This document shows positions 1-64,000 of a DNA stretch of 64,000 nucleotides, one piece after another. The stretch is from assembly GCA_905160935.1 (NCBI GenBank), contig CAJHZI010000433.1:186001-250000 (forward strand), read 5' to 3'. The position numbers and the translations under genes are program-made. The notes beneath the pieces are model-generated. The model had not been told where the DNA came from, searched no databases, and saw only the letters and a list, made by a program, of their open reading frames with translations. The DNA is from Enchytraeus crypticus (Eukaryota > Annelida > Clitellata > Enchytraeida > Enchytraeidae). The first letter of the stretch is position 1. Each line of letters opens with the position of its first letter.

Positions 1-209
1 TTAACACTTAATAACTTAACACTTATAGTTTAACTCTTTCACCCATTATAACGGTATGCATGCATTACAACGCAGTTATAATATAGACCCATTACATTTA
101 CATGTAAATTTTTGTATCAGTGTCAACATAAACAAATCAGTGTTACCATACAACAAAATATGTTTTCAATTACCGAACTGATCTATTCAGTCGCATCCTC
201 TTTCGCCAT
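1..209. other. Unassigned AT-rich flank
   Basis: AT-rich sequence before the satellite begins. I see no open frame, RNA or known repeat in it. Confidence 0.5.
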
Positions 210-3200: not shown

Positions 3201-3235
3201 ATATTGATAGTTGATCATATATTGCTAGTTGTATT
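210..3235. repeat. 18-bp satellite array, about 3 kb
   Basis: Tandem copies of GATAGTTGATGATATATT, with variants that swap GATGAT for GATCAT, GTTGAT or GCTAGT. The unit is six codons long, so one plus frame reads as repeats of ILIVDD and a minus frame as repeats of INYQYI. The long open frames here (for example 724-1194 plus and 2189-2953 minus) are by-products of a stop-free unit whose length is a multiple of three, not genes. Interspersed 15-bp units (GATAGTTGATGATTATT-like) break the frames, which suggests higher-order organisation. Confidence 0.95.
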
Positions 3236-15224: not shown

Positions 15225-15230
15225 TTTATT
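15225..15230 (-). terminator. POC5: AATAAA overlapping the POC5 stop
   Basis: The final codons read CTTCAATAAAATC, so an AATAAA hexamer overlaps the TAA stop. If used, the 3' UTR would be extremely short; another downstream signal may be the real one. Confidence 0.25.
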
Positions 15231-15363
15231 GAAGAACTTTAATTGGTTGATACTTAACAGCAGCTGCACTGCTGCCGATGCTACTGGCCTGTGAAGAAGT
15301 TCTGCCAGATCTCTGCTGCTGAGGCCTAACTAACTGTGCAGCAGCTACCGACTGAGATACACC
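15226..15363 (-). CDS. POC5: POC5 terminal exon
   Basis: Starts GGTGTATCTCAG after TTATTCGTAG and encodes a Ser/Ala/Gln-rich tail ending YQPIKVLQ. The human tail ends in a similar SIKVVD. Confidence 0.82.
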   Translation of the reverse strand, partial: GVSQSVAAAQLVRPQQQRSGRTSSQASSIGSSAAAVKYQPIKVLQ

Positions 15364-27430: not shown

Positions 27431-28014
27431 TTAAGCGTCTACGTTAGAAATATTATAATTTAAATTACGATTATTAATAAGCGAGCTTCACATTTCGAAA
27501 GTTATACTAGTTCGTTTGACGGACAGATTTATTACGAACGATGCAAACGTTAGGCAAACCCGAAACTGCAAGATTAGACATGTCAAAAATTTTAAAAACA
27601 ACAACAGCCCCTCCTACTAAATGTTTACATAGATCATTCATGATTTCTTATTTGAAGAGATAAAAGATTAAAAAATGGCAAGCTAAGGTGGCTCGCAACT
27701 GTACGGTGGCTCGCAACTGCCATCTAATTTCTTAACTTTTTTTATTTAATAAACCAAATTTCTTGTTACTATAAATAGCCACTTTGTTACTATAAATAGA
27801 CATGTGTGCTATTTATAGTAACCAAAATTTCTTAACTTTTTTTTATTTAAAAAAAACAAAACAAATTTCTTGTTACTATAAATAGCCACTTTGTTACTAT
27901 AGACCTTTGATAACTGTACTTGGCAACTCTGTTCGCATTGTAAACAAATTGTTGTGTGGCGGGGAGACGCTATAGCGTGTGTTTATGTTAAACTTCCGGG
28001 CAGCAATTGTTAGG

Positions 28015-28180
28015 TAATTAGTCCATTTTTCGTGTATCCAGTCCTATGAATGTCCGAAGTTTTACTCTCAGATTTAGCGCGTTTGGAATTCGAACTCACG
28101 AGAGTTCAATTCACTTCAGGATCTCTCATTTAAAACTTGATGGCGCTACCTGACGGCCCCTAATGCGCTACTGTGATATC
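28015..28180 (-). repeat. tRNA-like SINE (family B) inside the transposon
   Basis: Minus strand copy with ATTCGAACTCACGAGAGTTC on plus and TCCAGTCCTATGAATGTCCG; close relative of the copies at 10,770 and 47,140. Confidence 0.7.
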
Positions 28181-45558: not shown

Positions 45559-45653
45559 ATGACAAGTATAGAGAAATTAGTAAGAGCTGTGGAGGCTCTA
45601 AAAGTCTTTCCAGCGACTTCTGTCCCATTACCAGAAGACACTAATCTTGCCAA
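45559..45653 (+). CDS. HTT: HTT exon 1, N17-like helix without polyQ
   Basis: ATGACAAGTATAGAG to AA|GTGAGC. Encodes [20 protein letters not shown] and [11 protein letters not shown]. The preceding TAGTTAATTGAAG provides in-frame stops upstream, fixing the start. Confidence 0.92.
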
Positions 45654-48600
45654 GTGAGCAGTTGTTTTATTTTAATTTCTATGATTAGCATAAATTAATT
45701 AAAAATTTAAATTATAGACTTTAGATTAGTTTGTGCAGAAGGCTGCCAGTCCGCTATGTAATGTTTTGATATTTGATCATGCTGGAGCCATAACGCTGCA
45801 AATTGTTGAATTTCTTGTCCCATGGTACCCTGTGCAACTGCGGCAGTACTCTTTTTATTGCAAATTTTAAGAGAGTGTTAATATTTTTGTAATACAAACT
45901 TGTGGAAATATTTGTAATCCCTGATGGTCTTAACATGGAGACAGAGCAGATAAGTCTTTTGTTTATTTTATAGCTAAATATGTCAGTGTAAAAGTGTATT
46001 GGTTTTACCATATCTAATATATAATATATACTAACTAACTATACATGTATGTGCTTTATCTAGTGAAATTTGTGCATGCAGTGACACTTAGATGCCCGAA
46101 TAGATAAGATGCGTTCCTGAAAGCAGGAGGTCATTGGTTTGAATCTCATCTGGACCATCTCTACAGTAAACCTTGGTTTTACAGAAAAAGTTTAACTAAT
46201 TTGACAACTTTTTATCATGGTAAGGATGATAAGGATATGTATTGATTTACTGCTACAGGCTGGCAGGAGGAATCGCTGGAGGTGTGGGGATGACCAAGAA
46301 AGAAGTCATGCCGAGCAAGAAAGATAAAATGATGAACTGTAACCTCGTTACAGATTGCGTCTGCTCCCAAGCTGTTAGGTGCGTAAAACAACAAAATATG
46401 TAACATATTCTTTAAGCAATATTGTTAAGCAATATACATACATTTGTTTTAGAATTTATATTTAACTTTTTGTTTGGATTTTCGGCTAACTTAGTTTAAA
46501 CAGTAATTTCAAAAATTATTTGAATTTTTAAAATTCTATTTGATTATGATTTTAATGGTTGAAAATTTCTGCATTGAAATAATGCCTTTAGTGGGGATTT
46601 CCATTTCCTCTTCTTTTGTTGCCTAATACATTAAACTTAACTTTGAGCTAAATTTATTTAAGCACTTATATGTCATTAAATGTAATATATACAATATGTA
46701 GAAAATTTTATGAAGCATGTAAATTGAAAAATGACATCATTGGATTGTCGAATATTTTATCTCCTATTTTATTAATGGTAAATATTTGAAATAACTTAAT
46801 TGATATTACAAATTTAACAGTTACTTTTTTGTTTCAAACTGTAATTCTAATCAGTTTAAAATTATCTATAGTTAGTGTGTATTTATTTTCTATCAAAATG
46901 ACTATTTATTATAATTTAATTTGATCCTATCGACTTTATAGCCTTATTCTCTTTAGAAATATTGAAATTGATTTTATTTCTCAGAAATTCGCCAGATTTT
47001 CCCAAGTTTCTTGGAATAGCGGTGGAGACTTTTCTGCTGCTGTGTGACGATGAGGACAGCAATGTTAAGATAGTGGCAGACGAATGCTTGAACAGGACTA
47101 TCAGGGTATTTATATGCATCTAAATAAGTAAAAATAAACACACGCTATAGTGAAATGATCAACTATGTTGATATCTATCACTTTTTAATAGCACATGTTT
47201 AAACCGTTAGGCAATTTAGATCATTTTCCGTATAACCAGTCCAGTGAATGTCCGAGATTTTACTCTCAGATCAGCGCGGCTGGGATTCGAACCCACGAGG
47301 GTTTAGTTTAATTCACCTCAGGATCTGTATTTTAAAACTTGATGATGTTACTCCTACTCTGTTAAGACATCCGTGCGATATTAAATATCTCCTGCTCCTG
47401 CACATAAACAAAATCACATGTGCAAGTGCATGCTCATCTCATGTGTACACATACATATGCATGAAGACATACTAAACAGATGCACATAGGTACGCATACT
47501 TGCTGCTCACGTTTATGCGCGTACTTACTTCATATGTACAACATATGTACACATATGCGCATACTAATTTCACATGTTCTCAATTCACATACGTACTCAT
47601 ACATACTGGATGTCTACACATTGTAGTATTATATGTACCAGTAAATAGTATTTGCTAATAAATATATACCTCATGAATACTGCACATACTTATACTGGTT
47701 TAATTATGTGTTAGTCTCTTTCGTTCATAGAGCATTAATTGAAGCAGAATGATGTAGTAGCATCAAGTAATCATTGGTGGTGTTTTCCATTAGTACAGTC
47801 TGTAAACTTAAATAACTTTTAACTTTTTTGATATATCCAACCAGAAACTCTGAAGTGAAGAGTAAACGATGCCGCTAATAGAGTTAGGTGTATTGAAGCA
47901 AATGTAGCTCAAATTTCAGACTTAAAGAAGTGTTGTCACTTTGGTTGTGGTCACAATAATATATAGTTAATGTTATAAATTATAGCCTCTACTGGTAAAA
48001 GTACTGAACTGTAAAGTTGTATGAAAGGTCCGTTTTGATCCTACAGTCGCTATTTACTTTATGATCTGCATTAATATGCCTAAATATTATAAATCACTGT
48101 ACTAATTATAATTATAACTGATCTCTTGTAGACTTTAATGGAATCAAATCTTGGCAGACTTCAGATTGAACTGTATAAGGAGTTAAAGAAGAATGGACCT
48201 TCTAGAAGCTTGAGAGCAGCCTTATGGAGATTTGCTGAGTTGTCTCATCTCATTAGACCTCAAAAGTGCAGGTAATATGTTAGCATGATATTTGTTTTAT
48301 TTTGATAGCAATTATTTAATTTGTTTTGTTTTGATTAATATACTGTACAAACTTGCTAAATTACTATCTTATATTATTATAGCAGCTTATTATTTGAAAT
48401 GCTATATATTCTATTGTAGTATCCCCCGAGTTTTGCGAAAATTTGCAAAGACTTTCTTTTTCATTTTGAACATCTGAAAAATATGCATGTTTCATAAAAC
48501 TCGATGCTCAGGTGGATATGCTCAGAGCTAAGTTGTCGAAGCTGTAGAAGCTGTTTTATAGTTCAATGAAATCAACGGGTAGCTTAAATTTCATAATTAA

Positions 48601-49073
48601 GAAGTTGTGGCCACATTGTTTTGCTCTTTCATAAGGCACTCGACTCTGATTACTTTTTCATTAAAATGCGACAGATCAAATATTGCTATTCTGTTTGTAT
48701 AAATTGTAGTTTACTTATCTGATATCTTGCCTATTTGTTTGTACTTGCCATGCATAGTTAATCTGCTGCATTGCTTTTTTGCTTGTACAGACCTTAATAG
48801 TTAATCTGCTTCATTGCTTCTGTGTTTGTGCAGACCATACATAGTTAATCTGCTTCATTTCTTTTTTGTCTGTACGGACCATATATAGTTAATCTGCTTC
48901 ATTGCTTCTATGTTTGTACGGATTATTCATAGTTAATCTGCTTCATTGCTTCAATATTTATATGATCCATACATGGTTAATCTGCGTTATTGCTTTTGTG
49001 TCTGTGCAGACCATACATAGTTAATCTGCTTCATTGCTTCTATGTTTGTGTAGACTATACATAGACATATATA

Positions 49074-49116
<43 letters not shown>

Positions 49117-52100
49117 TATATATTATTATAAATTATTTATATTATATAAATATATAATATATATATATATATATAAATATACATATATATATATTGAATG
49201 TCTTAATAGCGTAGGGGTAACGTCATGAAATTTTAAATAACAGATCCTGAGGTGAATGGAATCCTCGTGGGTTCGAATCCCAGCCGCGCTGACCTGAGAG
49301 TAGAATCTCAGACATTCACTGGACTGGTTACACGGAAAATGGAATAAAATGCCTAACGGTTTAAACATGTGGTATTAAAAAGTGATAGATATCAACATAA
49401 TTGATGATTTCACTATAATGCGTGTTTACATAGTTAATTTGCTTCATTGCTTCTGTGTTTGTACGGACCATACTTAGTTAATCTGTGTCATTGCTTCTGT
49501 GTTTGTGCAGACCATACATAGTTAATCTGCTTCATTACTCTGTGTTTGTGCAGACCATACATAGTTAATCTGCTACCCTGCCTCACTCGTATCTGTCACC
49601 GTCCCGAGGAGTTGGTTCAGGATGCTCTTGCTGCAGCCATGCACAAGCTCTGCCCGGTGCTGCTCGGTTTCACAACTGACATAGAAGCCAAGGTAACTTC
49701 ATCTCATCAGATGCCCACTTGTTTTTGTATAATATCATACAAAATGCTGTTTTTTTAATTTGAGTTGGGTCAATATATGAGACCATCAATGATCCATTAT
49801 GGCTTCTAAGAGTGAATTCTGTGAAAAACAAAGAGTATTTGTTTGGGATGAAGAGAATCATCTGTAACATTAGAGATATTTAGTTGAGCTTTAGTAGTTA
49901 AAATTACTAATTTATTGCCATAGTTCTTTAATATTCACTCATTTAGTGCTCTAGTTCACTGTGTTACTTTATTTGCCATTTCTGCTGTGAAGTAATTTAT
50001 TTCCTTCAATGAATTATTATGTGTAATTAATGATTTGAGGCATTTGAATATATCATCAAACTATAAACTTGATGTTACATTTATAATTTTATATGACCGA
50101 TATCTGGTTTTGATAGATGTTACTTAAGGCTTTCCTGCCGAACACAAAATCCACATCAGCCGTGAACAGAAGAACAGCTGCATCCTGTCTAACTCTGATA
50201 TGTCAGCATTCCAGAAAACCTGTTACTTTCTCTCTCTGGCTGCTCAATGTTCTCCTAGGTATGTCACCTATATCGTCCACTCCTTCATCCTGCCAAGTAG
50301 TCTATCCGTCGATATATAAATCATTTAAACAATGAGCCAAGCAATCTATCCGTCGATATATAAATCATTTAAACAATTAGATTAGCCAAGCAATCTATCG
50401 GTTGATATATAAATAAATTAAACAATTAGATTAGCCAAGCAATCTATCGGTTGATATATAAATAAATTAAACGATCAGCTAAGCAATCTACTGGTGTATA
50501 TAATAATCAATCAAAGAATCAGGCAATCTTTCAGTCGATATATAAATCAATTAAACTTTCAAGCAAGCAATGTATCGGTCGATATCTAAATCAATGAAAA
50601 CTGTCAATTATCTTAGTGTAAACTGAGTGAATCTATCAATATTTAACTCGATGAATCTGTCAAGGAACTGTTGGTATCTTATTTATGTGATTGACTAGCT
50701 ATCAACAAATTTAAATTAATCCTCAGTTGATAATTAGTTAAGAAGAACTGCATGACTCTATCTAATTCATAATTGTCAATAGGTAGAAAATCTCTGTATA
50801 GTTGTATGATTGTTACATATCACTGTAAATAAATTAAAAAGTAATCTCTTTTTGGATCTTTTATAATCCTTGATAGGGTTAGCTTAAATAGAGAATTGAT
50901 AGATATCATAAGGAATAGAAAGAAGAGCTGGATGGGTCATGTACTGAGAGGTAATATTATAATTTACTGAAAGAGCTAACTAAGGGAAGAAAGGAAGGAA
51001 AAAAGGTTATATATTGAAGACCGAGATGTGGGATGTTTAATGATATGATAACTACTTCATATGTTGATATGAAGAGAAAGGCAGAGGATAGAAATATGTG
51101 GAGAAGTTATATGCCATGGACTTGCCCATAGGTAGTGCACTGAGAGAGATAATCCTCGAATGATTTGCTGTACTCTGCTTTGTTGCATATTCTGCAGATA
51201 ACTTAGTACCGCTGGAGGAGACCACTGACACTGCGACAATACTGGGAGTGTTGCTGTCACTAAGGCATCTCATAGGGCTTCTGTTTGATGTAAAGATGCT
51301 GGAGGCTGTGTCGTCTAGTGGCAGAAGACTTAAAGGAAGCTTTGGATCTAAGTTTGCCGAGGCTGATGTTAAGCTCAGTGTCAGGCAGATGATAAGGGTA
51401 TTTATGAATAGTTGTTTATTTAGCACATGACACAATTATGTACTTTTTACCTGATATGGAGAAATTATGCGTTTAAACAGGTAATATTTAACATTTTGAG
51501 GAGTGAAATCCAAATAAATGCTGGATTTATGTTTACTTAGAGAAATCTCATATGGAACAAATGCTTTGTTGATGAACAACTTAGACAAATCAAAACCTTG
51601 TCAGTGATTAGTTGTTATTTAAATTTCGTTGGTACTTAGAACTAACATTTTTCTCGGATCAATTATTATGGTGATGCAAATGTAATATCGATATTCTTAC
51701 TGTTGTTGTTGTTATAGATATTGGAGGTGCTACTGTACTACACGAGTCACTCTGATCACAACGTGGTAACAGCGTCATTGGAAGCCCTGCATCAGCTGCT
51801 CAAGCACGCACCACAATCGCTCATCTCTACCCTCTCTACACGCGCTGGGGTCGGCAGAATGAACATTCACGAGAAACTTGAACCTACGCAGAAATCTGAT
51901 GGTAAGTTGTTGAGAAGTCTGATGATATGTTGTTGTAAAGTCTGATGATGTGCTGTAGGTTATTCTGATGGTAACTTGTAGAGAATCTGATGGTAAGTTG
52001 TAGAGAATCTGATGGTAAGTTATAGAGAAGTCTGATGGTAAGTTGTAGAGAAGTCTGATGAAATGTTGTAGAGAAGTCTGATGATATGTTGTTGTAAAGT

Positions 52101-52955
52101 CTGATGATGTGTTGCAGGGAATTCTGATGGTAAGTTGTAGAGACGTCTAGTCTAATGGTAAGTTGTAGAGAAGTCTGATGATAAGTTGTACAAAAATTCT
52201 GAGTGTAAGTTGTAGAGAAATCTGAGGGTAAGTTGTAGAGAATTCTGATGGTAAGTTGTAGAGAATCTGATGGTAAGTTGTAGAGAAGTCTGATGGTAAG
52301 TTGTTGTAAAGTCTGATGATGTGTTGTAGGGAATTCTGATGGTAAGTTGTAGAGAAGTCTAGTCTAATGGTAAGTTGTAGAGAAGTCTGATGGTAAGTTG
52401 TATAAAATTTTGAGTGTAAGTTGTAGAGAAATCTAAGGGTAAGTTGTAGAGAATTCTGATGGTAAGTTGAAGAGAATTCTGATGGTAAATTGTACAGAAT
52501 TCTGAGAGTTAGTTGTAGAGAAATCTGATGGTATGTTGTAGAGAAGTCTAGTCTAATGGTAAGTTGTAGAGAAATATGAGGGTAAGTTGTAGAGAATTCT
52601 GAGAGTTAGTTGTAGAGAAGTCTGATGGTAAGTTGTAGAGAAATCTGAGGGTATTTTGTAGAGAAATTTGATTGTCAGCTGTAGAGATGCAGAGAAATAA
52701 TTGATTGGTAAATTGTAGAGTAGTTTGAGGATATGTTTTAGAGAAATATGATGGTAGATTGTAGATAGATCTGAGGGTGAGTTGTCATGAAGTCAGAGGG
52801 TGTATATAAGCTATATACTGTTTTTGGGCAGTATACATTTGACTTCCGTTAACAAAGATAGGGAATTTATGATAGAAATGTTGTTAAATATCTGATATTT
52901 AATATGTGGGGACGTCCCTGACATCATCCCTCTATGAGGAAGCTGACGTTAAACC

Positions 52956-52994
<39 letters not shown>

Positions 52995-53222
52995 AGATAA
53001 AAAAGACTTTATTTAATTAAAAGAAAGATGAAAAATATTTAAAGTAGTTCCTCTACGCTCTGGGAGGCCGCATTCGCCAATGTGTCACGAATGCATACAG
53101 CATATAAACGCTGGAGTGCGATAGATAGGCGCTGCCATAGAAAGGCTTTTTCACGTTGATCGCCTGTAATGGCACTGGTTCTCCTGCCCAATTCGTTAAT
53201 GAAGTCAGACGCGGCATTATTA

Positions 53223-53257
<35 letters not shown>

Positions 53258-53819
53258 TTATTATTATTATTATTATTGAACTGTTTTAGGCAGTACACGC
53301 CTGCCCTCAGTTGACGATGATGGTGGTATGGCAGCTGACGAAGAAGAGGTCGACGTGAGCACATCAGAATCTGATGACGTCATGCAGATATACACGGACA
53401 CGGAGGGTAGTGTGCGTGGAGACATCGATGACTCACTGCCGGCTCTTACTCTTGATCTCGACGAGGAGATTCCTGCACCGAGTGCCGAGGAGGGAGGCGA
53501 TGTAACCGATCAGCTGACCGACGAAACAGTTGAGCGACTGGTAACGGGAGCGGAGTATTCCGCCGTTGATATAGCAGAGACCGGTGTTCTCTCTCCCAGC
53601 AGCAGCAACGACACGCTGTCGTCAGCGGCTGTGTCGAAGACTGCGACTGGAGGTGGGCTGACTGTGCAGGCGACGAGGAAGAGTTTGAGCGTTAACACTG
53701 GAGACAGAATGAGCGTAGAATCGGAGGAGAGTAGCGAGGAAATAGCTGAGGTCAGCGATGCTTCGCCGCTGTCATCTCCGATACGGGATGGGGAGATCGG
53801 TAGGCCTACTGAAGTTTAT

Positions 53820-53869
<50 letters not shown>

Positions 53870-56800
53870 GGTTTAACGTCCGTTTCCTCATACAAGGATG
53901 ATGTCAGGGACATCCCCCATCAATGTCACCACAAATCGATTCACCCCAAATGATCTGAAAAAACATTTGCTGAAGAGAAAGAAAAAGATTCTAAACGGTG
54001 CCGGTCCGGCGATAACAAAAATAGTCAGGCAAGATGAAAAATGTAGATGACATCATCCCTGGATGAGGAAACTTGTGCTGCTTTCTGTTGTTAACCGGTA
54101 TATATTCTGAGTTAGGTGAATTGAACAAGTAATAAATTTCTTGAATATGAGTCATTTTGGTTAGGAAGTCCTATTGTAAATCTGCCCATAATAGCAAAGA
54201 ATGAACTTTTTTGTATTAGAATAAAAATGGTGTTGTATCGTGTTCATTTGCAATCTTTTCTCTTTTGGTTATAATATATGTTGTATTGTTTAGCAATATG
54301 TTGATTGATTCGTGATATATGTAACCTACATGCCTGTTGTCCGATATACTTGTACATGTAATTAATATACATGTATGGTATATCGCGATGCATCATGTAT
54401 TTTATTACTTCTTATATATTTAGCAGATTCATAGGTGGGATATGTTGTATTATGGTGCATTATGAACTTTTTAATTTATTATATTTATAAATTATATATA
54501 TATATTTTGTTCATGTGGCTACACACATACCGCATATGTTAGAGTTCCTTGCTTAGATTCTGTTTTTGGTGTTTTTGGTATTGCCTTCTTGCTTTCCATG
54601 GTTATTAGTAATCATTGACTTTAGAAGCGCACTGAGGGCTGCCTGCGCTTATTTAAGAATAAACTATCAACATCCTAGGGAACTTGCTTTCATTCCAATC
54701 TGTCAACAATCGGTCTACTAAGGGCGTCGGTCGCCCATCTTAGTACTGACCAGGCCCGACGTAGCTTAACTTCGTTCATCGACACGCAACTAAATCTACA
54801 TGCCTTTAATGTGTGACTGCGTGTAATGTGCTATGCAGGTAGCCTGGACGACAATGAAGTGCCGCTGGTGTATATAGTGCGACTTCTCTGCAGCAGATTC
54901 CTATTGACGGGCTATCAGAACGGTTTAATATCTGACAACCGGGTTAGAGTGAGCGTGAAGGCTCTGTCTCTCAGCTGCATTGGCTGTATTCTCGATGTCT
55001 ATCCTAAAGCGTTCCTCAGGAAACTACACAAAACCAGCGCTGAGCATGGTCAGTCCTTGCTAGGCTTGTCCATCTATAATCGAAAATATTCGTTTATTGC
55101 AATGTTAATTCTACAACATGTCTCACTTTAGTCCTCGTACAATTTACAATTCATTACACATATTACTTCTCTGCACATAGTTACGTAATTATAGAATTTA
55201 CTATAAAATTCTTTGAATATAGTTGACTCTTATGTAAATTGTAAACATATAAATTTAATTTTCTTTCTGCAACCCACTCGTTGAAATGGACTTCTTAAAT
55301 AATTATGGAAAGAAACAAAAATGTTTTATCGAGAGTTTTCAACATAATCTCTTATGACTTACAATAATTAAATAACAATGAGTAGTAAATGCAATTGTTT
55401 CAACAAAAGCTGTATTGACAAAATGGAAATAAATATCAATTAATAACTGCTAGTTTTTCGACATAGTCTCAAATGGCATAAAATAAATAAATATCAAATC
55501 AAATCATTAATAAATGCTAGTTTTTCTACTTAATCTCTAAAGACATAAAGTAAATAAATATCAAATAGTTAATAAATGCTAGTTTTTCAACATAATCTCT
55601 AATGACATTATGCTGGTTGCTAGGTGTTTGACATAATTTCTCTTGGAATGAATGCTAGTTTTTCAACATAATCTCTAATGACATTATGCTAGTTGCTAGT
55701 TTTTCGACACAATCTCTAACAGATAAGGTCATTGGTTGTCTGCAGGAGATCTGCAGGACATGAAGGACGTGCTGTTGTTTGTCAACCACTCTGATCAGCA
55801 GCTGAAGGGCAACACATGCATTCTGATTGGTCACCTCATCAGAGCCGCGCTGATCGAGGGCAGGGGTTGTCTCCAGCAGTGGACGAGGACTGAGCTAGAG
55901 CACGGTAGTATGACTCGTTGTATTACTATAGTATACTGGACGATATGTTGTCATTGACGATGTGCTTGATATTGTCATTGACGATGTGTTGGATTTTGTC
56001 ATTGACGATGTGCTGAATGTTATCATTGACGATGTGCTGGATGTTGTCATTGACGACAGCTTAGTTCTATTAGTAGTTGATGTTGTTGTATGTTTGACTA
56101 TATTGTCGTGCTTGCCTATGTGGAGAATTCATGGAAGGGAAGGTAGAATTTAATTAGTTGCATTAATATGTGCCATGGAATTGCCGGCACGCTACACACT
56201 TGCGGGTAGAAAGAAAATGGAGAGAGAGAGAGATGAGTTGGGAAGCGCAAGTATAAGTAGTGGAATGAATTTCTTGTGTGTGTCATGTTGTGAGCTAATT
56301 TAAACGTGCATTATACCTTGATGATATGTGTAAATTTTAATCCCAAATGTTGAAATCAGGTGGCAGTTCAATCAATTATTCATTTTACCAGTCCGATGAA
56401 TGTTTAGAATTTTACTCTCTGATCAGCTCTACTGGAAAAGAAACCTACGAGATAAGTTTATTTCTAGAAAGATTATTTAAACTTCTAAGGTATAACCTGA
56501 CACTCTTCACACTGTGCCATTGTTACTATCAATCTTAGAATTTATTATATCACACTTCGAAGTTCATTACCATTGAAAGCCGTATTGTTGTTGCTTTTTG
56601 TTGTAGACGTGTGCACTCTAGAGGACCTGATAACACCGCTGTTGTCAACATTAGAGGATGAGTCATCAGTGGCGGCTAGATGTGCAGTGGTAGCACTGCA
56701 GCTGTGTCTGTCTGCTGTTCTAGAGAGTGATCAGAGTCATCTGGCGGTGAGACTTCTTATTGCTCTGCTGCGGGTCAGCAACAACAGCTACTGGCTGGTC

Positions 56801-59800
56801 AAGGTCAGGCTACTTGCGATATGTATTTTACAGATTTGTAGGTCAGATTATAGTCAAGATGTTATAATGGGGTTATAATATGTAATATAATCATCATCAT
56901 GTAGTATGTATATTACAGATTTGTAGGTTAGAATTATAGTTAAGATGTCATAATGGAGTGATTTGCTATATAGCTTCAATGTTAAACTCTCAGATGTACT
57001 GTTTACATAGGTGGCCTAGTCAATTCATCTTCTGCGGGTTTTGTGTAGCTCGACTTCCTTATGTGCTTGATATGAATCCTATGGATGACCAATCAGCGAT
57101 GTCGATACTTGATATAAATCCCATGTATGACCAATCAGCGATGATGATACTTGATATGAGTCCCATGGATGACCAATCAATGATGTCGATACTTGATATG
57201 AATCCCATGGATGACCAATCAATGATGTCGATACTTGATATGAATCCCATGGATGACCAATCTGCGATGACGATACTTGATATGAATCCCATGGATGACC
57301 AATCAATGATGTCGATACTTGATATGAATCCCATGGATGACCAATCAGCGATGTCGATTCTTGATATGAATGCCATGGATGACCAAACAATGATGTCGGT
57401 ACTTAGTATTAATCCTATGGATGACCAATCAACGATGTCGGTACATGGTATGAATCCCATGGATGACCAATCGATGACGTTGCATTCAAATTGCAAAACC
57501 GATTTAACATTTTTCTTTAGCTTTAATTAAATTTGATAGGTTTTTATATAATTGACTTCAATTTTGACAGAATTTTTATATCTTTATTAAATTTCTAGAA
57601 TTAAATATGGGTTATTTGTAGGAATTGACAATTAATATTAGGATGGTTGCCAAAAAAGTTTTCGTTTATTTCGTGTTAATTAGTAACTTTAGTTAGATTA
57701 TTCCTCAAAGTTACTTGTACTTAAGCATTGATGTAGACATTTCTTATTAAATTTGTTAAGCAATTATTACTACAATTAAAAAGTGTCAATATATAGAAAT
57801 CTAGACATTAATTTTGTATTTTATTTTTTTATACTACATTTGACTAATTTGAATTGTGACTGATGATACGGTATGAGACAGAGTGAAGTGGAGATGGTCT
57901 ATTCTTATCTCGACCCCAGCTAAACTGGGATTTAAGGGAAGACGATGACGATGATCATTTGTTTATGAAATTTCGTAATTACTTAATTATATGTCATATT
58001 TGCATCGATGTTTGCGCATCATTATTTGCGCATCTCTATCTAAGATGTATTATTTTGTATCTCGGACCCACTGCAGGTTGAGCTCGTGGATTTGTTGGCT
58101 GAGATCGACTATAAGATCATATCCTATATAGAGAAGTTGGACTCAACTACTGAGTACATTGGTGGACATCGCTACTTAAATGTAAGCTATGTCTGTTATA
58201 GGAAGCACTAGAGAATTGAGTTTTAATTTTGATTTGAAAAACCTGAAATCTACATTTAAAACTTGACAGCGACAGTATTAGATTTAAGAATCATGTATAG
58301 CTTAAATGTGGATATGGAGAAGACTGGAAAGGATTAGCTGGACTCAAAAGGTTACAAAATGAAGAAGTTCTGGAGGGAGTTGGTACAGATAGACAGTTGA
58401 TAAATGTGTTAAGAAATACAAAGAAGAGTTGGATAGGACACATTCTAAGAGCGGAAAGTCTATTAAACGAGGTCATAGAAGTTAGAGTGGAAGGAAATAG
58501 GGGCAGAGACAGGCCGAGATTTGTCAGTGTTCATCACTAAGAGAAGCAGATGAATTGAATTATTGCTTCAACATGTAAATACAAATATTTATACGTGTTA
58601 AAACGATGTGTAAATATTTGCAATAAAACAGTGTTAACTACTTGCATGATCTTCTTCTTCAGTTGCCTGCGAAATGGCATGTTCAAGGTACATATTCATA
58701 CTCAAAGTCTGCTTTCTCGCTACATATTACTTATTACTTGGATGATATTGATAACTAATAGAACGCATTGAAACGATTCATATAGCGTCTACTAATTAGA
58801 TCGTCCTATCCTCATCTAGTGTTCTCTGAAATTATACGACAATTAATCATGACTTTAAAATTTATGGTTTATACACTTTTTGTGATAATTACTCTGGATC
58901 ATTTAACCTATAGCAGTATGATAGACATGATAGAAAGGTAATTAACGTAAAAATAACGAAAGATAATATAATTAACGTAACGGAACGAGTAAGTTATAAG
59001 TTGTTGTACGAGTTATCCTCTTAAACATGTTGTAGAAGCTGAACCTGCAACAGCACGTGTTAGATGTATTTCTCCATCTATTGTCCGATGATGATCTAAG
59101 AGTCAGGAACGCTACGAGCGCAGCCCTCGTCAAGTAAGATGTTATATTTCATTTGCAGTTCTCTCGCAGATCAATATTTTTACAACAATATTTGACCAAC
59201 CTGCTAATGGGTTTTATAAAATGATTAAAATCATATTTATGAACTCTTTTCATTAAGATGTTTTATTAATAATAGTGTTTTGTGTTTTTGTGTTCGTGAA
59301 ATTGTGTTTGTGTTTCGAGTAAACCATTAATTTAAAGGAAAGATTAAAAACTCAGCGATACTGTTATCGTTGTTAATCACTGCACAAGTGCTTTTTTGTT
59401 ACTAAACATGAAACATTTTCTTCTAGTCATTTCTAAGATGGATGTAAATAATATTGTCATGACGAATTAGTTATGATTATTGTAATTTGTTAATTAATTA
59501 CTTACTTATTATTAGTATTAATTACTGTATAGAACAAACCTATAAGATTATTTTCACTGGCTCCATCCGGTGGCGATGTCGGTGATGGTAAATTTAATTA
59601 TTGATTATTAGGTTTATAAGTGTCTGGCTTTCTTAACGTCTGTACTCTTATATCTGCTTCATGATGGATATTTTTCCAGGTTGATTCCCAATCTGTTCTT
59701 CCGGGCCGACAGTCCACTCATGGACGCAGTCACGGCTAGAGCTCATCAGATGACTTACGCCCATCTCGGGTCCATCTCTGATGACGCCTACACGCCCCAG

Positions 59801-62800
59801 TCCACGATGCACTCGAGTGTAAAATCTAAGTACCTGTCCACCTCCTCGTCGTCGTGTATTGAGGCCGCGCTGTCGAGGATTGTAGTGACGATACACGCGG
59901 CGTTAGTGAAATCTTCCAACAGAAGTGTGATCGTAAGTGTTGATTCAGTTAATGCCAATAATTGTACGGAATAGTTGGACATTTTACATAATATGAGTTC
60001 ATTTCTGAGTTGTAGTTATTAAGAGAATAAGTTTACGTGTACTTTGAAGAAATTACTTAATGATATATGTGTCTAATTTATTAAAAGATTCATATTGATC
60101 TATCGATCTTGCTGTATTGATTGTAGTACTTTATTTGGCAGTATTTGTAATGTTTGCAAGGTAACAATTGTTTGTGATATAAGTATATCTGTGTATTACA
60201 ACACGGTTTGGCCTGGCCTCAATACTGTAAATCACTGTCTAACAGCCTGGAAGTGTTCCTATCCTTCTCAGTGCCTGTGCGTGTGTCGTTACGTACAGTG
60301 TTTCTGTCTGTGTTTGTATGTGTATTGTGGGTGTTATAGAGCTCAGTGTGTTTGTGTTTGTATGTGTAGTATGGGTGCTATAGAGCTCTGTGTGTTTGTA
60401 TGTGTAGTATGGGTGCTATAGAGCTCTGTGTGTTTGTATGTGTAGTATGGGTGCTATAGAGCTCTGTGTGTTTTATCTGAACACTACCCAGTGGATCACT
60501 ACCCTGCCGCCTGGGGGTGTGCCCCTGTGTATCACTCTGTATCTGTGGGTACTCCTGTTAGGACACTCAACGCACAGGCTGTTCCTCCTGCTCTGTTAGT
60601 ATCTCTCTCCATATGTGTGTGTATATGTCTAATTACGCTTTCTGACCCTGTGTTTGTCATGTTATGTTAAAGTTATTAGCAATACCTCTTAAAGTTATAA
60701 GCGATACCTCTTAAAAGTTATAAACAAGCTCCGGCTAGAGCCAGTGGGGATATCGATAAGATATTCGACCGCGGATCAGTAGGTGCGGGGTTCAAATCCT
60801 GGACTCGCCCGTCACTGTCATCGCTTTCGAGTGAGAAAATTGGCGTTAACATTAACGTTTAATGCTAACGCTCTTAAAGTTATAAGTAATCGCTCTTAAA
60901 GTTGAAAACAATCTCTCTCAAAATAATGAACTATCTCTCTCTGAGTAATAAATAGTCACTCTCGAAATAATAAACAATCCCTTTGCAGCAAACGTTTTAT
61001 TTTCAATAATATAGTTATATTTTCATTTCCACTCATTGAATGACATCATATGCCTGTTTGCTGTTGCTTGAAATAGTTTTTATCTTCTATATATTCCTCT
61101 TAGGGAGAAAAAATATTGACTTCTCTCAGCTTGAAATCTTTACAAGAATTATGTTGTTCCGACTCTAAGCCTAAGTAGGATAATTCGGAAAAAGTAATTT
61201 TGGCTTCTTTCAGTCGTCTTTGATACTAGTTATTTTTCAGCATAAGCTCAAAGCCACCTACATTCGAGAAGTTTGAATTTATAATGCAGTTTCTTCTATT
61301 TTACTATTTGTAATATAGTTTTACAACCAGTTTGCTTCTTAATCGTTGATTAAATATTAGATTGAGAAGTCTGCTTGATTAATTAAACAATCTAGTTGAA
61401 ACAAGAAGATTTTATATATTATTTATTTATTTATTTATTTGATACGCAACAGAAGGTTGACTGCTTAATTGGATGATGGGTGCTAGATTGATTGAATGCC
61501 TGATTGATTGACCGATTGATTAAATGATTTATTTTTGTCTTTTGATGGTTGATGGTCTGATTGATTAATTGACTGATTGATTAATTGACTGATTGATTTA
61601 CTCAGTGAAGCGGGTAGACTACACAGTTGTGGAGGAGGTCCCCTGCCTGTGTGCGTGGCTCACGTGACCTCGTCATTCCTCACTCTTGATTTGTCTGCTC
61701 ACGTTGATGCTCTGCAGTTGGCGGGAAATCTTTTGTCAGGTTCGCTGTCGTCCTTTCGCTTACTAATTCAACCAATCTATTATAATTATTACTGACAATG
61801 AAATCTTATATAGTAGTGTCATGGCCGAATTTAAATTGTAATATTCTGTATTTACATGTACTTTAGATTAGAATACAAAGTCATTAATCTTTATTTGGCA
61901 GAATATATTAAAGTTGGGTCCAACAGAAGGTAATAGCTATTTCTGCTTGTTATGCTTCCATATAAAGATATGGAATTTACTCTTTTGTTGACAGTGACTG
62001 CGTTGACTGATATTTCGGTTACGATTTGATATAATAATAATATTATTGCGGCGTCTGTGAAATTATCTTGTGGCTAGGAACCGGACGCTAAATTCTTGTT
62101 GATTGATTGATTGACTATTGAAATATTTTTCATAGAATTTGTTTTATAAAAATTTTAAATTCTTAAAACTAAGAACTGATTTAGTAGAAAGCTTAATTGA
62201 TTGATTGATATATTTAATAGGTGCAGAACTGTCATGTCTGCAGTATCCGGATGATAAAAGCCTATCTGGCACTGAGCCAATTCGTTGGGCTGCCGTATCA
62301 GACCGTGTCATTGCCTCTTTCGCTGATGATCTACTCACGCATGTTTCTAGGTGTTGTATATTTCTGTTAGATACTATATATTTTCTTTGAATATCGCTGC
62401 CTTTTTATTAATGACTTGACTTTAAATAATTATTTCATTGTTTCTGAATATATATTTTGCTTCTGAGATCAATTCATTTTGTTAACTGATATTGACCCAA
62501 TGAATTTCCATTTTTAAATGTGCCTCAGTTTTACTTGAGCATCAAAAGGTTGAAAAAGAAAATCTCTGAGAATCTGTTGTCTTTTCAGAGTACACAAGCA
62601 ACCAGAAGTAATTGTCAACAGCAGATCTTGGTTGCTGGCACTGTAATTAATAACTAAAATCTAAGTAAACATGAACGTATTCATACACTGTTTGAACTAA
62701 AATTTAGCATTTTTAGCGGTATTACTGGACATAAGCATCGTAAATGTCGTAAACGTTTTACTATGAGAATAGCACTATGAGAATATCATTATGAGCATTA

Positions 62801-63417
62801 TGAGCATTATGAGCATTATGAGAATAGCACATTTCATTAAAATTTGTTATACATGCATAATCATCATCATCATCATCATCTTCCCTTAAATCCCAGTTAA
62901 ACCAGGGTCGGGATACGAATAGACTTTCTCCAGTCCTCCCTGTCCCACACTATATCATCAGTTAAAAAAAGTTGATATATAATATGCTAATTATAATATA
63001 TAATATGTTTATGGTACTGGCAATAATACTAAACGCACAATAATACTATTAAACCCCATGTTTATAAATGAGCAACACTCTTTCAGATTAACATGTGTCT
63101 AATAATGGTATTCTAGAAATGTTTATTATTATAACTATCGATTATATTTAAGTAGTTCTTTGTAAATAACTACTTTATATTTAAGTAGTCTTTGTGTATT
63201 TTTACTGCTGCTTTGTTGAACAGATTACTGAATATAATCTACCACGTGTTGGATGATCAGACGCCTGGGCCCGCCCCCTCTAAGCCCCTCCTCTCTAACC
63301 TGCCCAACGCCCCCTCGCTCAGCCCAATCAGGCGCAAAGCCAGGATTGGCAGCAAAGAGGAACCGGTGGCTGCTGCAGCATCGTCAGCTGATAAACCATC
63401 AAAGCCTGCTCCTAAAG
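45559..63417 (+). CDS. HTT: Huntingtin, exons 1-19 (partial, continues past the window)
   Basis: Nineteen coding exons whose phases all agree, 3,202 nt or 1,067 codons so far. Identity rests on homology with human huntingtin as I remember it: the N17-like start [141 protein letters not shown] and [11 protein letters not shown]. The protein is a large HEAT-repeat scaffold that works with HAP40 in vesicle transport, autophagy and other roles. There is no polyglutamine or polyproline tract: the first exon runs from the amphipathic helix into [17 protein letters not shown]. The part seen corresponds to roughly the N-terminal third. Confidence 0.97.
46085..46160 (+). repeat. tRNA-like fragment (SINE family C)
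   Basis: CCGAATAGATAAGATGCGTT, GCAGGAGGTCATTGGTTTGAATC. Similar to 9,540-9,612; in HTT intron 1. Confidence 0.4.
46259..46378 (+). CDS. HTT: HTT exon 2
   Basis: After GCTACAG; encodes [17 protein letters not shown] and [20 protein letters not shown], donor AG|GTGCGT. The KKDK..N.C....C..Q..R pattern matches human exon 2; the Gly-rich part takes the place of the human Gln/Pro region. Confidence 0.9.
46985..47105 (+). CDS. HTT: HTT exon 3
   Basis: After TTTCTCAG; encodes [20 protein letters not shown] and [18 protein letters not shown]; donor AGG|GTATTT. Confidence 0.95.
47140..47385 (-). repeat. tRNA-like SINE (family B)
   Basis: Inserted 35 bp after exon 3. Minus strand box B TGGGTTCGAATCCCAGCCGC; starts with the palindromic AGTGAAATGATCAACTATG on plus. 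Confidence 0.75.
48132..48271 (+). CDS. HTT: HTT exon 4
   Basis: After CTCTTGTAG; encodes [20 protein letters not shown] and [20 protein letters not shown]; donor AG|GTAATA. Near-identical to human in its second half. Confidence 0.96.
49065..49200. repeat. (TA)n-rich tract
   Basis: TA dinucleotides mixed with TAATATATA, next to the SINE that splits the exon 5 array. Confidence 0.85.
49200..49432 (+). repeat. tRNA-like SINE (family B), fullest copy
   Basis: Starts TCTTAATAGCGTAGGGGTAA (box A-like), GTGGGTTCGAATCCCAGCCG (box B-like), ends AAAGTGATAGATATCAACAT then a TTTACATAG. ACATAG occurs on both sides of the inserted block, a likely target duplication within the exon 5 array. Confidence 0.75.
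49554..49692 (+). CDS. HTT: HTT exon 5
   Basis: Encodes [20 protein letters not shown] and [19 protein letters not shown]; donor AAG|GTAACT. The acceptor is the last unit of the upstream array. Confidence 0.95.
50117..50258 (+). CDS. HTT: HTT exon 6
   Basis: After TTTTGATAG; encodes [20 protein letters not shown] and [20 protein letters not shown]; donor CTAG|GTATGT. Confidence 0.95.
50290..50605. repeat. About 47-bp minisatellite after exon 6
   Basis: Six or seven copies of AAGCAATCTATCGGTTGATA, TATAAATCAATTAAACAATT-like units. It starts about 30 bp past the donor but does not include it. Confidence 0.85.
50875..51155 (+). repeat. LINE 3'-end fragment
   Basis: AAGAAGAGCTGGATGGGTCA, GAAATATGTGGAGAAGTTAT, GGACTTGCCCATAGGTAGTG, CACTGAGAGAGATA. 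It ends 43 bp before exon 7. Confidence 0.65.
51198..51397 (+). CDS. HTT: HTT exon 7
   Basis: After ATTCTGCAG; encodes [32 protein letters not shown] and [14 protein letters not shown]; donor AGG|GTATTT. Human has [20 protein letters not shown] here. Confidence 0.94.
51718..51901 (+). CDS. HTT: HTT exon 8
   Basis: After TGTTATAG; encodes [20 protein letters not shown] and [20 protein letters not shown]; ends AAATCTGATG|GTAAGT. The exon's last bases and the donor form the unit of the following array, so the exact donor in use is open. Confidence 0.9.
51891..52800 (+). repeat. 23-bp array of 5' splice sites
   Basis: Unit GTAAGTTGTAGAGAAG then TCTGATG, about 38 copies by length with about 20 exact GTAAGT by eye. 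TCTGATG|GTAAGTTG is the true end of exon 8 plus its donor. Later copies drift (GGTATGT, GGTAAAT, GAGTGTAAG). Confidence 0.92.
52905..52995 (-). repeat. Dispersed repeat with (TTA)n end
   Basis: Inverted copy of the 5,025-5,160 element: GGGGACGTCCCTGACATCAT then AAACCTTTATTATTATTATT. Confidence 0.7.
53040..53280 (-). repeat. Unclassified insertion flanked by (TTA)n
   Basis: 53,045-53,215 is GC-richer than its surroundings and open on the minus strand ([38 protein letters not shown]), followed by a (TTA)n run to 53,278. It resembles a piece of a transposable-element protein, but I cannot name it. Confidence 0.4.
53290..53799 (+). CDS. HTT: HTT exon 9, acidic disordered segment
   Basis: After GTTTTAG; 510 nt, encodes an Asp/Glu/Ser/Thr-rich linker ([60 protein letters not shown]). 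Donor ATCG|GTAGGC. It sits where human huntingtin has its caspase/calpain-cleaved disordered loop, and is rich in predicted casein-kinase-type sites. Confidence 0.9.
53822..53960 (+). repeat. Dispersed repeat with (TAA)n head
   Basis: (ATA)n then GAGGGTTTAACGTCCGTTTC and CAAGGATGATGTCAGGGACA. Begins 23 bp after the exon 9 donor. Confidence 0.75.
54700..54805 (-). repeat. 5S-rRNA-like SINE copy
   Basis: Minus strand: GAAGTTAAGCTACGTCGGGC, CTGGTCAGTACTAAGATGGG, CGACCGACGCC, which matches the 3' half of 5S rRNA including the internal A-box and C-box (GATGGGCGACC). Only the 3' half is present, so it is a 5S-derived SINE or pseudogene rather than a 5S gene. It ends about 35 bp before exon 10. Confidence 0.75.
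54839..55048 (+). CDS. HTT: HTT exon 10
   Basis: After GCTATGCAG; encodes [40 protein letters not shown] and [20 protein letters not shown]; donor CATG|GTCAGT. Human has RLLSASFLLTGGKN and [15 protein letters not shown]. Confidence 0.96.
55430..55720. repeat. Minisatellite before exon 11
   Basis: Irregular 60-70-bp repeats with ATGCTAGTTTTTCAACATAA and TCTCTAATGACATTATGC. Confidence 0.8.
55746..55904 (+). CDS. HTT: HTT exon 11
   Basis: After GTCTGCAG; encodes [20 protein letters not shown] and [20 protein letters not shown]; donor CACG|GTAGTA. Confidence 0.92.
55930..56065. repeat. 24-bp minisatellite after exon 11
   Basis: Five copies of CATTGACGATGTGCTGGATG TTGT. Too short a gap to the exon for an independent element. 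Confidence 0.85.
56160..56235 (+). repeat. LINE end fragment with (GA)n
   Basis: GCCATGGAATTGCCGGCACG ... GAGAGAGAGAGATG; diverged copy of the (GA)n-tailed family. Confidence 0.35.
56385..56480 (-). repeat. tRNA-like SINE (family B), diverged
   Basis: CCAGTCCGATGAATGTTTAG, TTTTACTCTCTGATCAGCTC matches the family B core with many substitutions. Confidence 0.5.
56607..56803 (+). CDS. HTT: HTT exon 12
   Basis: After TTGTTGTAG; encodes [20 protein letters not shown] and [16 protein letters not shown]; donor AAG|GTCAGG. Human has [20 protein letters not shown] and LTLRNSSYWLVR. Confidence 0.95.
57056..57490. repeat. 42-bp minisatellite in HTT intron 12
   Basis: About ten copies of GATATGAATCCCATGGATGA, CCAATCAATGATGTCGATACTT. 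The unit is 14 codons, leaving open frames on both strands (plus [14 protein letters not shown] repeats). No splice site leads into it in the HTT frame, so it is judged non-coding. Confidence 0.9.
57895..57960 (+). repeat. LINE 3'-end fragment with (GAT)n
   Basis: CTCGACCCCAGCTAAACTGG GATTTAAGGGAAGACGATGA; same family as 37,795-37,850. Confidence 0.6.
58077..58181 (+). CDS. HTT: HTT exon 13
   Basis: After CCACTGCAG; encodes [20 protein letters not shown] and [12 protein letters not shown]; donor AAT|GTAAGC. Confidence 0.94.
58315..58550 (+). repeat. LINE 3' ORF fragment
   Basis: GTACAGATAGACAGTTGATA, AAGAAGAGTTGGATAGGACA, AGGGGCAGAGACAGGCCGAG: plus-strand copy of the 18,410 and 44,440 family. 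Confidence 0.65.
58655..58740 (-). repeat. LINE 3'-end fragment
   Basis: TTCAGTTGCCTGCGAAATGG, CATGTTCAAGGTACATATTC, as at 35,585. Confidence 0.5.
59036..59133 (+). CDS. HTT: HTT exon 14
   Basis: After ATGTTGTAG; encodes [20 protein letters not shown] and [12 protein letters not shown]; donor CAA|GTAAGA. Confidence 0.94.
59680..59932 (+). CDS. HTT: HTT exon 15
   Basis: After TTTTTCCAG; encodes [20 protein letters not shown] and [20 protein letters not shown]; donor ATC|GTAAGT. Confidence 0.94.
60310..60480 (+). repeat. 38-bp array containing the exon 16 splice acceptor
   Basis: Unit TATGGGTGCTATAGAGCTCT, GTGTGTTTGTATGTGTAG. Exact TAG|TATGGGTGC junctions lie before 60,370, 60,408 and 60,446, plus a diverged earlier copy near 60,330. 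The last is taken as exon 16. Confidence 0.9.
60446..60516 (+). CDS. HTT: HTT exon 16
   Basis: Encodes [16 protein letters not shown] then DHYPAAWG; human has FGCCEALCLLSTAFPVCIW SLGW. Donor GG|GTGTGC was chosen because it gives the phase exon 17 needs; it is a weak donor and the frame stays open for about 90 more bases. Confidence 0.75.
60735..60870 (+). repeat. tRNA-like SINE (family A)
   Basis: AGCCAGTGGGGATATCGATA AGATATTCG, CCGCGGATCAGTAGGTGCGG, GGTTCAAATCCTGGAC, then the tail to TTAACATTAACG. Confidence 0.75.
61480..61605. repeat. TGATTGAT-type simple repeat before exon 17
   Basis: Degenerate TGATTGATTAATTGAC repeats reaching the acceptor. Confidence 0.7.
61606..61739 (+). CDS. HTT: HTT exon 17
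   Basis: After TTTACTCAG; encodes [20 protein letters not shown] and [20 protein letters not shown]; donor CAG|GTTCGC. Human has [20 protein letters not shown]. Confidence 0.9.
62221..62350 (+). CDS. HTT: HTT exon 18
   Basis: After TTTAATAG; encodes [20 protein letters not shown] and [20 protein letters not shown]; donor AG|GTGTTG. Human has [20 protein letters not shown]. Confidence 0.92.
62865..62960 (-). repeat. LINE 3'-end fragment with (ATC)n
   Basis: ATCATCATCATCATCATC then TTCCCTTAAATCCCAGTTAA and AGGGTCGGGATACGAATAGA. The target A-rich end is not visible. Confidence 0.6.
63224..63417 (+). CDS. HTT: HTT exon 19 (last in window)
   Basis: After TTGAACAG; encodes [40 protein letters not shown] and a Lys/Ala/Pro-rich tail; donor AAAG|GTCAGA, phase 1. 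PSLSPIRRK is nearly identical to human huntingtin. The gene continues past 64,000. Confidence 0.93.
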
Positions 63418-63435: not shown

Positions 63436-64000
63436 TTAGTTAAGTATATCGTGAGGGTATATTTTGGTAATATAAGTAAGTGTATTAGTTATGTATATCA
63501 TACAGATATATGTGGGTAATTTAAGTAAGTGTTTTAGCAAGTATATCGTATAGATATATGTTGGTAAGTTTGTTAGTGTGTTAGTAAGTATATCATACTG
63601 ATATATGTGGTTAAGTATATAAGTAAGTGTGTTACTAAGTATATCATACAGATATATGTGGTAAGTATATAAGTAAGTGTGTTACTAAGTATATCATACA
63701 GATATATGTGGTTAAGTATATAAGTAAGTGTGTTACTAAGTATATCATACAGATATATGTGGGTAAGTATATAAGTAAGTGTGTTACTAAGTATATCGTA
63801 CAGATATATGTGGGTAAGTATATAAGTAAGTGTGTTAGTAAAGAATATAATAGAAATAGATATATGTGGGTAAGTATGTAAGTAAGTGTATTAGTAAGCA
63901 TATCATACAGATATATGTGGGTAAATATATAAGTTAGTGTATTAATCGGTGTATCTTACAGATATACATGTATGTGGGTAAGTATATAAGTAATTATACA
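63436..64000. repeat. About 50-bp GTAAGT-rich array after exon 19
   Basis: Copies of GTAAGTATATAAGTAAGTGT then GTTACTAAGTATATCATACA and GATATATGTGG run to the right edge. The array starts within about 20 bp of the exon 19 donor and each unit carries one or two GTAAGT words. The right boundary is unseen. Confidence 0.88.

Follow-up and report, generated by a model that had tools for sequence, protein, structure and literature searches.

Tandem arrays of a copied splice junction in an annelid huntingtin gene, with similar arrays at junctions of myosin and CCT genes

The DNA considered in this study, referred to as the window, is a stretch of 64,000 nucleotides from the annelid Enchytraeus crypticus, with a GC content of 33.5%. 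Its plus strand carries a huntingtin gene, the features of which are listed in Table 1. The gene model joins 19 exons into 1071 codons free of stops, and its product matches human huntingtin over the modelled exons with 672 bits and an E-value of 1.1e-200, so that the model is solid. Exons are numbered as coding exons from the ATG assumed to be the start, exon 8 being the eighth. Exon 18 begins at 62221, and a second AG that would also preserve the frame lies 21 nt further inside exon 9. The window also contains, on the minus strand (15226-20602), the gene for the centrosomal protein POC5, two acceptors of which have minisatellites ending 11 and 23 nt short of them.

Table 1. Features of the huntingtin gene and its junction arrays (positions in the window; a slash, here and in the text, marks a splice junction).
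Feature	Position	Strand	Remarks
Huntingtin exons 1-19	45559..63417	+	Joined model, no stops
Exon 5 acceptor array (44 bp), upstream part	48727..49064	+	TRF
Interspersed element	49195..49430	+	Separates the upstream and downstream parts of this array
Exon 5 acceptor array (44 bp), downstream part	49427..49574	+	Extends 21 nt into exon 5
Huntingtin exon 5	49554..49692	+	Conserved start, (R) and a 12-letter stretch, is the copied part
Huntingtin exon 8	51718..51901	+	Phase 1 at 3' end
23-bp donor array	51890..52790	+	TRF to 52687, degenerate beyond; its initial 12 nt belong to exon 8
Real exon 8 donor GTAAGT	51902..51907	+	In-frame join to exon 9; score 8.25
First in-frame stop if the real exon 8 donor is skipped	51943..51945	+	Read-through reading
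Huntingtin exon 9	53290..53799	+	Acceptor TTTTAG/GC
Exon 16 acceptor array (38 bp)	60309..60473	+	Extends 28 nt into exon 16
Huntingtin exon 16	60446..60528	+	Start, an 11-letter stretch, is the copied part

The boundary between exon 8 and intron 8 recurs many times within the intron. TRF finds a period of 23 bp from 51890 to 52687, with 34.1 copies, 79% matches and the consensus AGAAGTCTGATGGTAAGTTGTAG. Fuzzy decomposition yields 38 units, among them the one joined to the exon, and they run from 51895 to about 52784. A preliminary description of this DNA, made from its letters alone, had correctly named the gene, the exon, the position of the donor and the homology of the repeat to it, as the gene model, TRF and the junction copies confirm. 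It had put the shared exonic bases at seven, whereas the array in fact sets in 12 nt within exon 8, the shared part being AGAAATCTGATG, and the unit is made up of 12 exonic and 11 intronic bases. The 23-bp spacing that it gave, not a multiple of three, holds exactly for 29 of the 37 steps between units, the remaining eight being 22, 24, 28 or 34 bp. That the end of the exon and the repeat unit are homologous also stands up to an alignment-type check: in addition to the 12 exonic bases in common, the 24-base donor junction has 26 copies in the adjoining intron. Neither the array nor its homology to the exon boundary is a matter of chance. An exact search of the 524-Mb assembly (802 contigs) with a 23-mer of the array found it in three places, all inside the array.

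Tandem arrays are hard to assemble, and the copy number may be wrong. It is nevertheless barely credible that the arrays described here are assembly artefacts: the units of this one differ from each other, an interspersed element interrupts another, and such arrays are present on several contigs. A higher-order repeat of about 212 bp can be seen inside the 23-bp array at 51964-52687, marked off by 28-bp steps (52151, 52363 and 52552), and it suggests that blocks within the array were duplicated.

The copied donors are less uniform than had been supposed. About 20 perfect GTAAGT sites were said to follow the real one; there are 20 within 51902-52800, but these include the real donor, so that 19 follow it, and 23 more lie elsewhere on the plus strand of the window. 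Nor is every unit a potential donor, as had been claimed, since among the 37 downstream units 29 have GT at the site, only 19 keep GTAAGT and eight have no GT there. GTAAGT is lost in each of the first three units past the real donor (ATATGT, ATGTGC and GTAACT), and the closest perfect unit lies 91 nt beyond it. Scoring of the GTAAGT units, which had been recommended as a check, was carried out with a matrix built from the window's other donors. The real exon 8 donor ranks fifth among the 19 huntingtin donors, and the array holds 19 GT sites, itself included, whose score is no lower than its own, leaving 18 strong decoys.

These 18 decoys differ from the exon-joined site in that it keeps the reading frame and they do not. 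Reading on past the real donor leads within 42 nt to a stop codon, which precedes every one of them; their use would therefore yield a truncated reading frame. I also considered a short extension of exon 8 that ends before the stop, and rejected it, as the GT sites available there (51906 to 51940) score at most 4.77, compared to 8.25 for the real donor. Two further candidates were rejected. Concealment of the decoys by secondary structure finds no support in the RNA from 51860 to 52150, which folds less well than shuffled sequences (z +1.67), and selection against the decoy dinucleotides finds none at exon 8, where G is retained in 0.78 and T in 0.97 of the 37 units, as compared to 0.73-1.0 in the other columns.

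The preliminary description had offered a ladder of alternative ends for exon 8, and with it many isoforms, as one reading of the array. Minisatellites can supply donors: Turri et al. reportedly described in 1995 a minisatellite with multiple splice donor sites in the human gene IFI6 (6-16). The unit of that minisatellite is 12 bp long and hence in frame. According to the accessible part of a paper that cites the work, two downstream units act as splice donors there, giving three mRNA species (PMC4526556). This precedent, together with the 18 downstream sites that match or exceed the real donor in score, speaks for decoys that are truly used. The two cases are alike in that minisatellite units carry splice donor sites, but in IFI6 two downstream units are used, whereas the exon 8 unit is 23 bp, no multiple of three, and the stop comes ahead of all of its strong decoys. 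A transcript spliced at any of the 18 could not go on to encode the remainder of huntingtin, and this argues against coding isoforms, as does the absence of GTAAGT from the three units closest to the exon. Judged from the reading frame, a ladder serving coding diversity is unlikely, and I hold the general proposition, that the decoys are in real use and give exon 8 many 3' ends, to be very unlikely.

The same early stops allow the decoys to be seen as a means of regulation. Their use would amount to unproductive splicing, with nonsense-mediated decay lowering the output of huntingtin and the length of the array acting as a dial. Every one of the 18 strong decoys would indeed bring an early stop. 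Against this, like arrays occur in unrelated myosin and CCT genes (see below), which suggests a mutational process rather than control of huntingtin, and I consider regulation of this sort rather unlikely.

Two acceptors of the same gene carry arrays as well. The 44-bp unit at exon 5 holds ...TTTGTGCAG/ACCATACATAGTTAATCTGCT, the exon side of which codes for the conserved start of that exon, and the 38-bp unit at exon 16 holds ...TATGTGTAG/TATGGGTGCTATAGAGCTCTG, translated as YGCYRAL, where human huntingtin has FGCCEAL and that of Elysia SGCCLAL. AG is kept in four of the nine upstream exon 5 units listed (one more unit, with an indel, falls outside the list), and the AG decoys tested, four at exon 5 and two at exon 16, all lead to early stops. 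The array at exon 5 is split by a TA-repeat and by the interspersed element of Table 1, of which there is an inverted copy at 47135-47370 (87% identical) and four other matches in the window. Because the element interrupts the array, the array is probably older than the insertion. Matches to the element in the window include 10768-10951 and 28009-28150. In the exon 5 units the A of AG ranks with the most weakly conserved positions, being present in 0.44 of nine units, which is suggestive of selection against the decoy dinucleotide, though the units are too few.

The acceptor arrays bear on the direction of copying. Their copied bases encode residues common to human, mollusc and amphibian huntingtins, and the sharing of these residues with mollusc and vertebrate proteins shows that exons 5 and 16 came first and that the intronic copies derive from them, exon 5 providing the stronger case. 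Exon 8 ends in TQKSDG, of which KSDG is copied, and this stretch is not conserved with Elysia or human huntingtin; I therefore infer the direction there only by analogy. The earlier proposal that the array grew from the exon 8 boundary is thus supported by the example of exons 5 and 16, while exon 8 alone does not prove it. With conservation silent on direction at exon 8, the order might have been reversed, the array existing first and the end of the exon being captured from its first unit as a shifted donor. I regard that as unlikely in view of the conserved residues encoded by the copied bases at exons 5 and 16, and of several myosin and CCT exons where the copied bases lie in coding sequence matched by a profile, both of which point to arrays that derive from exons. 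The evolutionary reading in the preliminary description is probably right.

In order to count such arrays, 12 bases were taken from each side of a junction, and copies of the resulting 24-mer were sought in the adjacent intron, three or more making the junction positive. The search is biased towards intact copies. Among 37 junctions in the window, it finds the exon 5 acceptor (8 copies), the exon 8 donor (26) and the exon 16 acceptor (3); for each of the remaining 34, the adjacent intron contains no copy. The exon edges of POC5 give none of 12 recurring, at least two of these edges not being true junctions (the end at the stop codon, and the 3' edge of fragment four). The exon 19 donor was considered as the founder of an array and is not counted: it shows no significant homology to a 51-bp unit, 104 of 500 shuffles being as good. 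That unit forms a GTAAGT-rich array at 63470-63993, just beyond the donor.

Outside the window, junctions were predicted near the edges of exon matches with matrices derived from the window. Downstream in huntingtin, nine of eleven exon matches were tested, those near 73134 and 100603 being omitted. The 18 predicted junctions include one positive donor (L004:7750-8388), with ATCAG/GTGTGTC seven times in 44-bp steps from 202 nt into the intron, and two others with one extra copy each. Myosin and CCT exons were located by profile, giving at least 81 myosin-head and at least 57 CCT matches among the best candidates scored. The 138 taken were reduced to 133 by dropping five CCT-family matches that are long single frames and intronless. 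Of those kept, 94 lie in a first set of regions, 11 in a second and 28 outside both; 128 kinesin matches were left out of the counts. The first set gave 179 predicted junctions from 188 edges, and the second gave 21 from 22.

Ten of the 179 junctions in the first set are positive (7 of 87 acceptors and 3 of 92 donors). Eight are clear by eye, including one (L031) where the predicted junction may sit one copy upstream of the true one, and the two weak ones are both at L033 (1146712 and 1149074). Examples are a myosin acceptor with seven copies that have AATCACGATGAAAGGAACTATC or something very close to it, a myosin donor with five copies in 43-bp steps and a CCT acceptor with four copies in 83-bp steps. 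Two of the 21 further CCT junctions are positive, one of them doubtful (L050, 926232). Taking huntingtin, myosin and CCT together, 16 of 255 junctions have three or more nearby copies, three of these being weak. The array at exon 8 is thus one case of a wider pattern and not unique to one donor. Decoys at the ten myosin and CCT junctions lead to early stops in 49 of 49 cases, which is the chance expectation, since the introns are AT-rich. Only one or two extra copies are found at junctions in L049 and L050 (CCT) and L004 (huntingtin), and these are possibly early stages of arrays.

Whether junctions are preferred sites is a separate matter, and tests for such a preference disagree in part. Control points with three or more copies number 0 of 500 in exon interiors, 79 of 500 in intron interiors and about 49 of 535 (9.2%) at random points of the region. 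The huntingtin junctions in the window (3 of 37) are not above intron interiors (Fisher p 0.34) nor above random points, these controls being inflated by points inside arrays and, for the intron interiors, by counting on both sides. The position of array ends gives a different picture. When array ends are sorted by their distance from 224 junctions (in huntingtin, POC5, myosin and CCT genes), 39 fall no more than 60 nt away on one side or the other, 22 are located 60-300 nt into the intron, and two are found deeper than 60 nt in an exon. The 40 loci of myosin and CCT hold 118 arrays, of which 30 have an end no further than 60 nt from a junction, compared to 13.1 expected (0 of 2000 shuffles, the maximum being 27), and 11 end 6-60 nt inside the exon, compared to 5.3 expected (p 0.0105).

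The test was refined by removing overlapping loci and by counting array-free exposure. Array ends within 60 nt of junctions then number 29 of 108, compared to 13.2 expected (p 2.9e-5), and arrays spanning into the exon number 10, compared to 5.9 expected (p 0.07). Restricting the periods to 15 bp or more gives 29 of 91 near junctions (11.0 expected, p 5.8e-7) and 10 spanning (4.9 expected, p 0.026); with two-copy arrays admitted, the numbers are 37 of 154 (19.2 expected, p 5.6e-5) and 12 (8.6 expected, p 0.15). Unmatched exons should make the clustering test conservative, and approximate junctions add noise. Arrays therefore gather about twofold at exon edges in this sample, while spanning itself is borderline.

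These results bear on whether anything more than coincidence is at work. Introns filled with minisatellites might be expected to have a few arrays that reach splice sites by chance, and the failure of the window junctions to exceed intron or random points, together with the borderline result for spanning, fits that idea. Array ends within 60 nt of junctions at about twice the expectation, under two nulls, do not, and I think coincidence a doubtful explanation, though one to be taken seriously. The explanation that I favor, and believe with some confidence to be correct, is that the boundary of exon 8 and intron 8 was duplicated in tandem and became a minisatellite, as one instance of a tendency towards junction arrays. 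The founding step would have been a tandem duplication of the 12 exonic and 11 intronic bases, followed by expansion through slippage or unequal exchange, the original copy staying with the exon while the array grew into the intron. In splicing, the exon-joined site would be the one used, either through exon definition, by its tie to the exon and its enhancers, or because transcripts spliced at decoys and bearing early stops are removed. The tendency itself would be one of a clitellate annelid to form tandem arrays at or beside junctions, at donors and acceptors alike. More tentatively, and with the odds somewhat against it, junctions in this annelid may be places where minisatellites preferentially arise. 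A mutational process, possibly linked to transcription or to the step in composition at exon edges, would then continually produce new copies of splice sites, leaving about one in 20 junctions with a decoy array.

Arrays of this kind have been described in amphioxus as 'mirage' minisatellites, and the accessible parts of two papers (PMC3087553, PMC3902484) present them as tandem repeats across exon-intron boundaries, 5' or 3', that keep the splice signals in many copies. Their hosts are the amphioxus genes for Adh3, the globins BflGb6 and BflGb9 and troponin C, with repeats of PGBD5 likened to them, and their units measure 10-72 bp in Adh3 and 150-160 bp in the globins (same sources). Regular splicing was undisturbed in the cases tested, and mirages were proposed as a source of new introns (PMC3087553; also PMC3902484). 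The annelid arrays resemble them in crossing the boundary at donors and acceptors (huntingtin exons 8, 5 and 16) and in keeping many of the signals, GT in 29 of 37 units at exon 8 and AG in four of nine at exon 5. They differ in the host, in the size of one donor array (38 units of 23 bp), in the presence of several arrays in one gene and in the gene families affected.

That the host is not a cephalochordate is no obstacle to the comparison, as the host group is where mirages have been reported and not part of their structure. The COX1 of the host (contig C802, TGA read as W) is 93% identical to those of Mesenchytraeus and Lumbriculus, the nearest named matches among the best 120 of 7999 candidates, and points to a clitellate annelid. 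The POC5 of the window is 38% identical to that of Capitella and 35% to that of Branchiostoma belcheri; the host is therefore not close kin of that lancelet. The array at exon 8 is a large new case, in a distant phylum, of a phenomenon known from lancelets.

Other comparisons are looser. In human segmental duplications, variable minisatellite-type repeats at exon-intron boundaries alter splice structure and create introns, as far as the accessible text of the report goes (PMC2812944). In those duplications new introns arise at sites of repeat variation, whereas in the annelid it is junctions already present that have been multiplied into the intron. The available part of an account of earthworm metallothionein (PMC12783039) describes large minisatellites in intron 1 and duplications of exon 4 that are missing from the transcript. 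This too is a clitellate gene with large intronic minisatellites, but that part describes no junction-grown repeats. The amphioxus huntingtin scaffolds contain several tandem repeat elements, which the portion seen of their description does not place at junctions (PMC2206037). In the literature returned by searching, available in part, I recognised nothing that describes splice-junction arrays in an annelid or gives a rate per junction.

The rules for choosing among competing splice sites have mostly been learned from engineered duplications. Arrays of nearly identical sites, which follow donors and precede acceptors in huntingtin, myosin and CCT genes, offer a test of that choice. A first-come rule predicts use of the exon-joined site at donors and of decoys at acceptors, and because the predictions are opposite, ordinary RNA data would separate timing from exon definition. 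The array at exon 8 is valuable as one among many, since their number opens the choice among identical copies to testing in this way. If minisatellites do arise preferentially at junctions, the genome would provide a natural experiment on the choices of the spliceosome at both sides of the intron, and would keep supplying material for introns to lengthen and perhaps for new ones to form. Should the excess at junctions prove to extend across the genome, it would point to a mutational bias that shapes introns in lancelets and annelids, two distant groups of animals.

Another minisatellite of the window, with an 18-bp period, extends from 208 to 3231 and contains about 170 copies (ATATATTGATAGTTGATG) with 93% matches.
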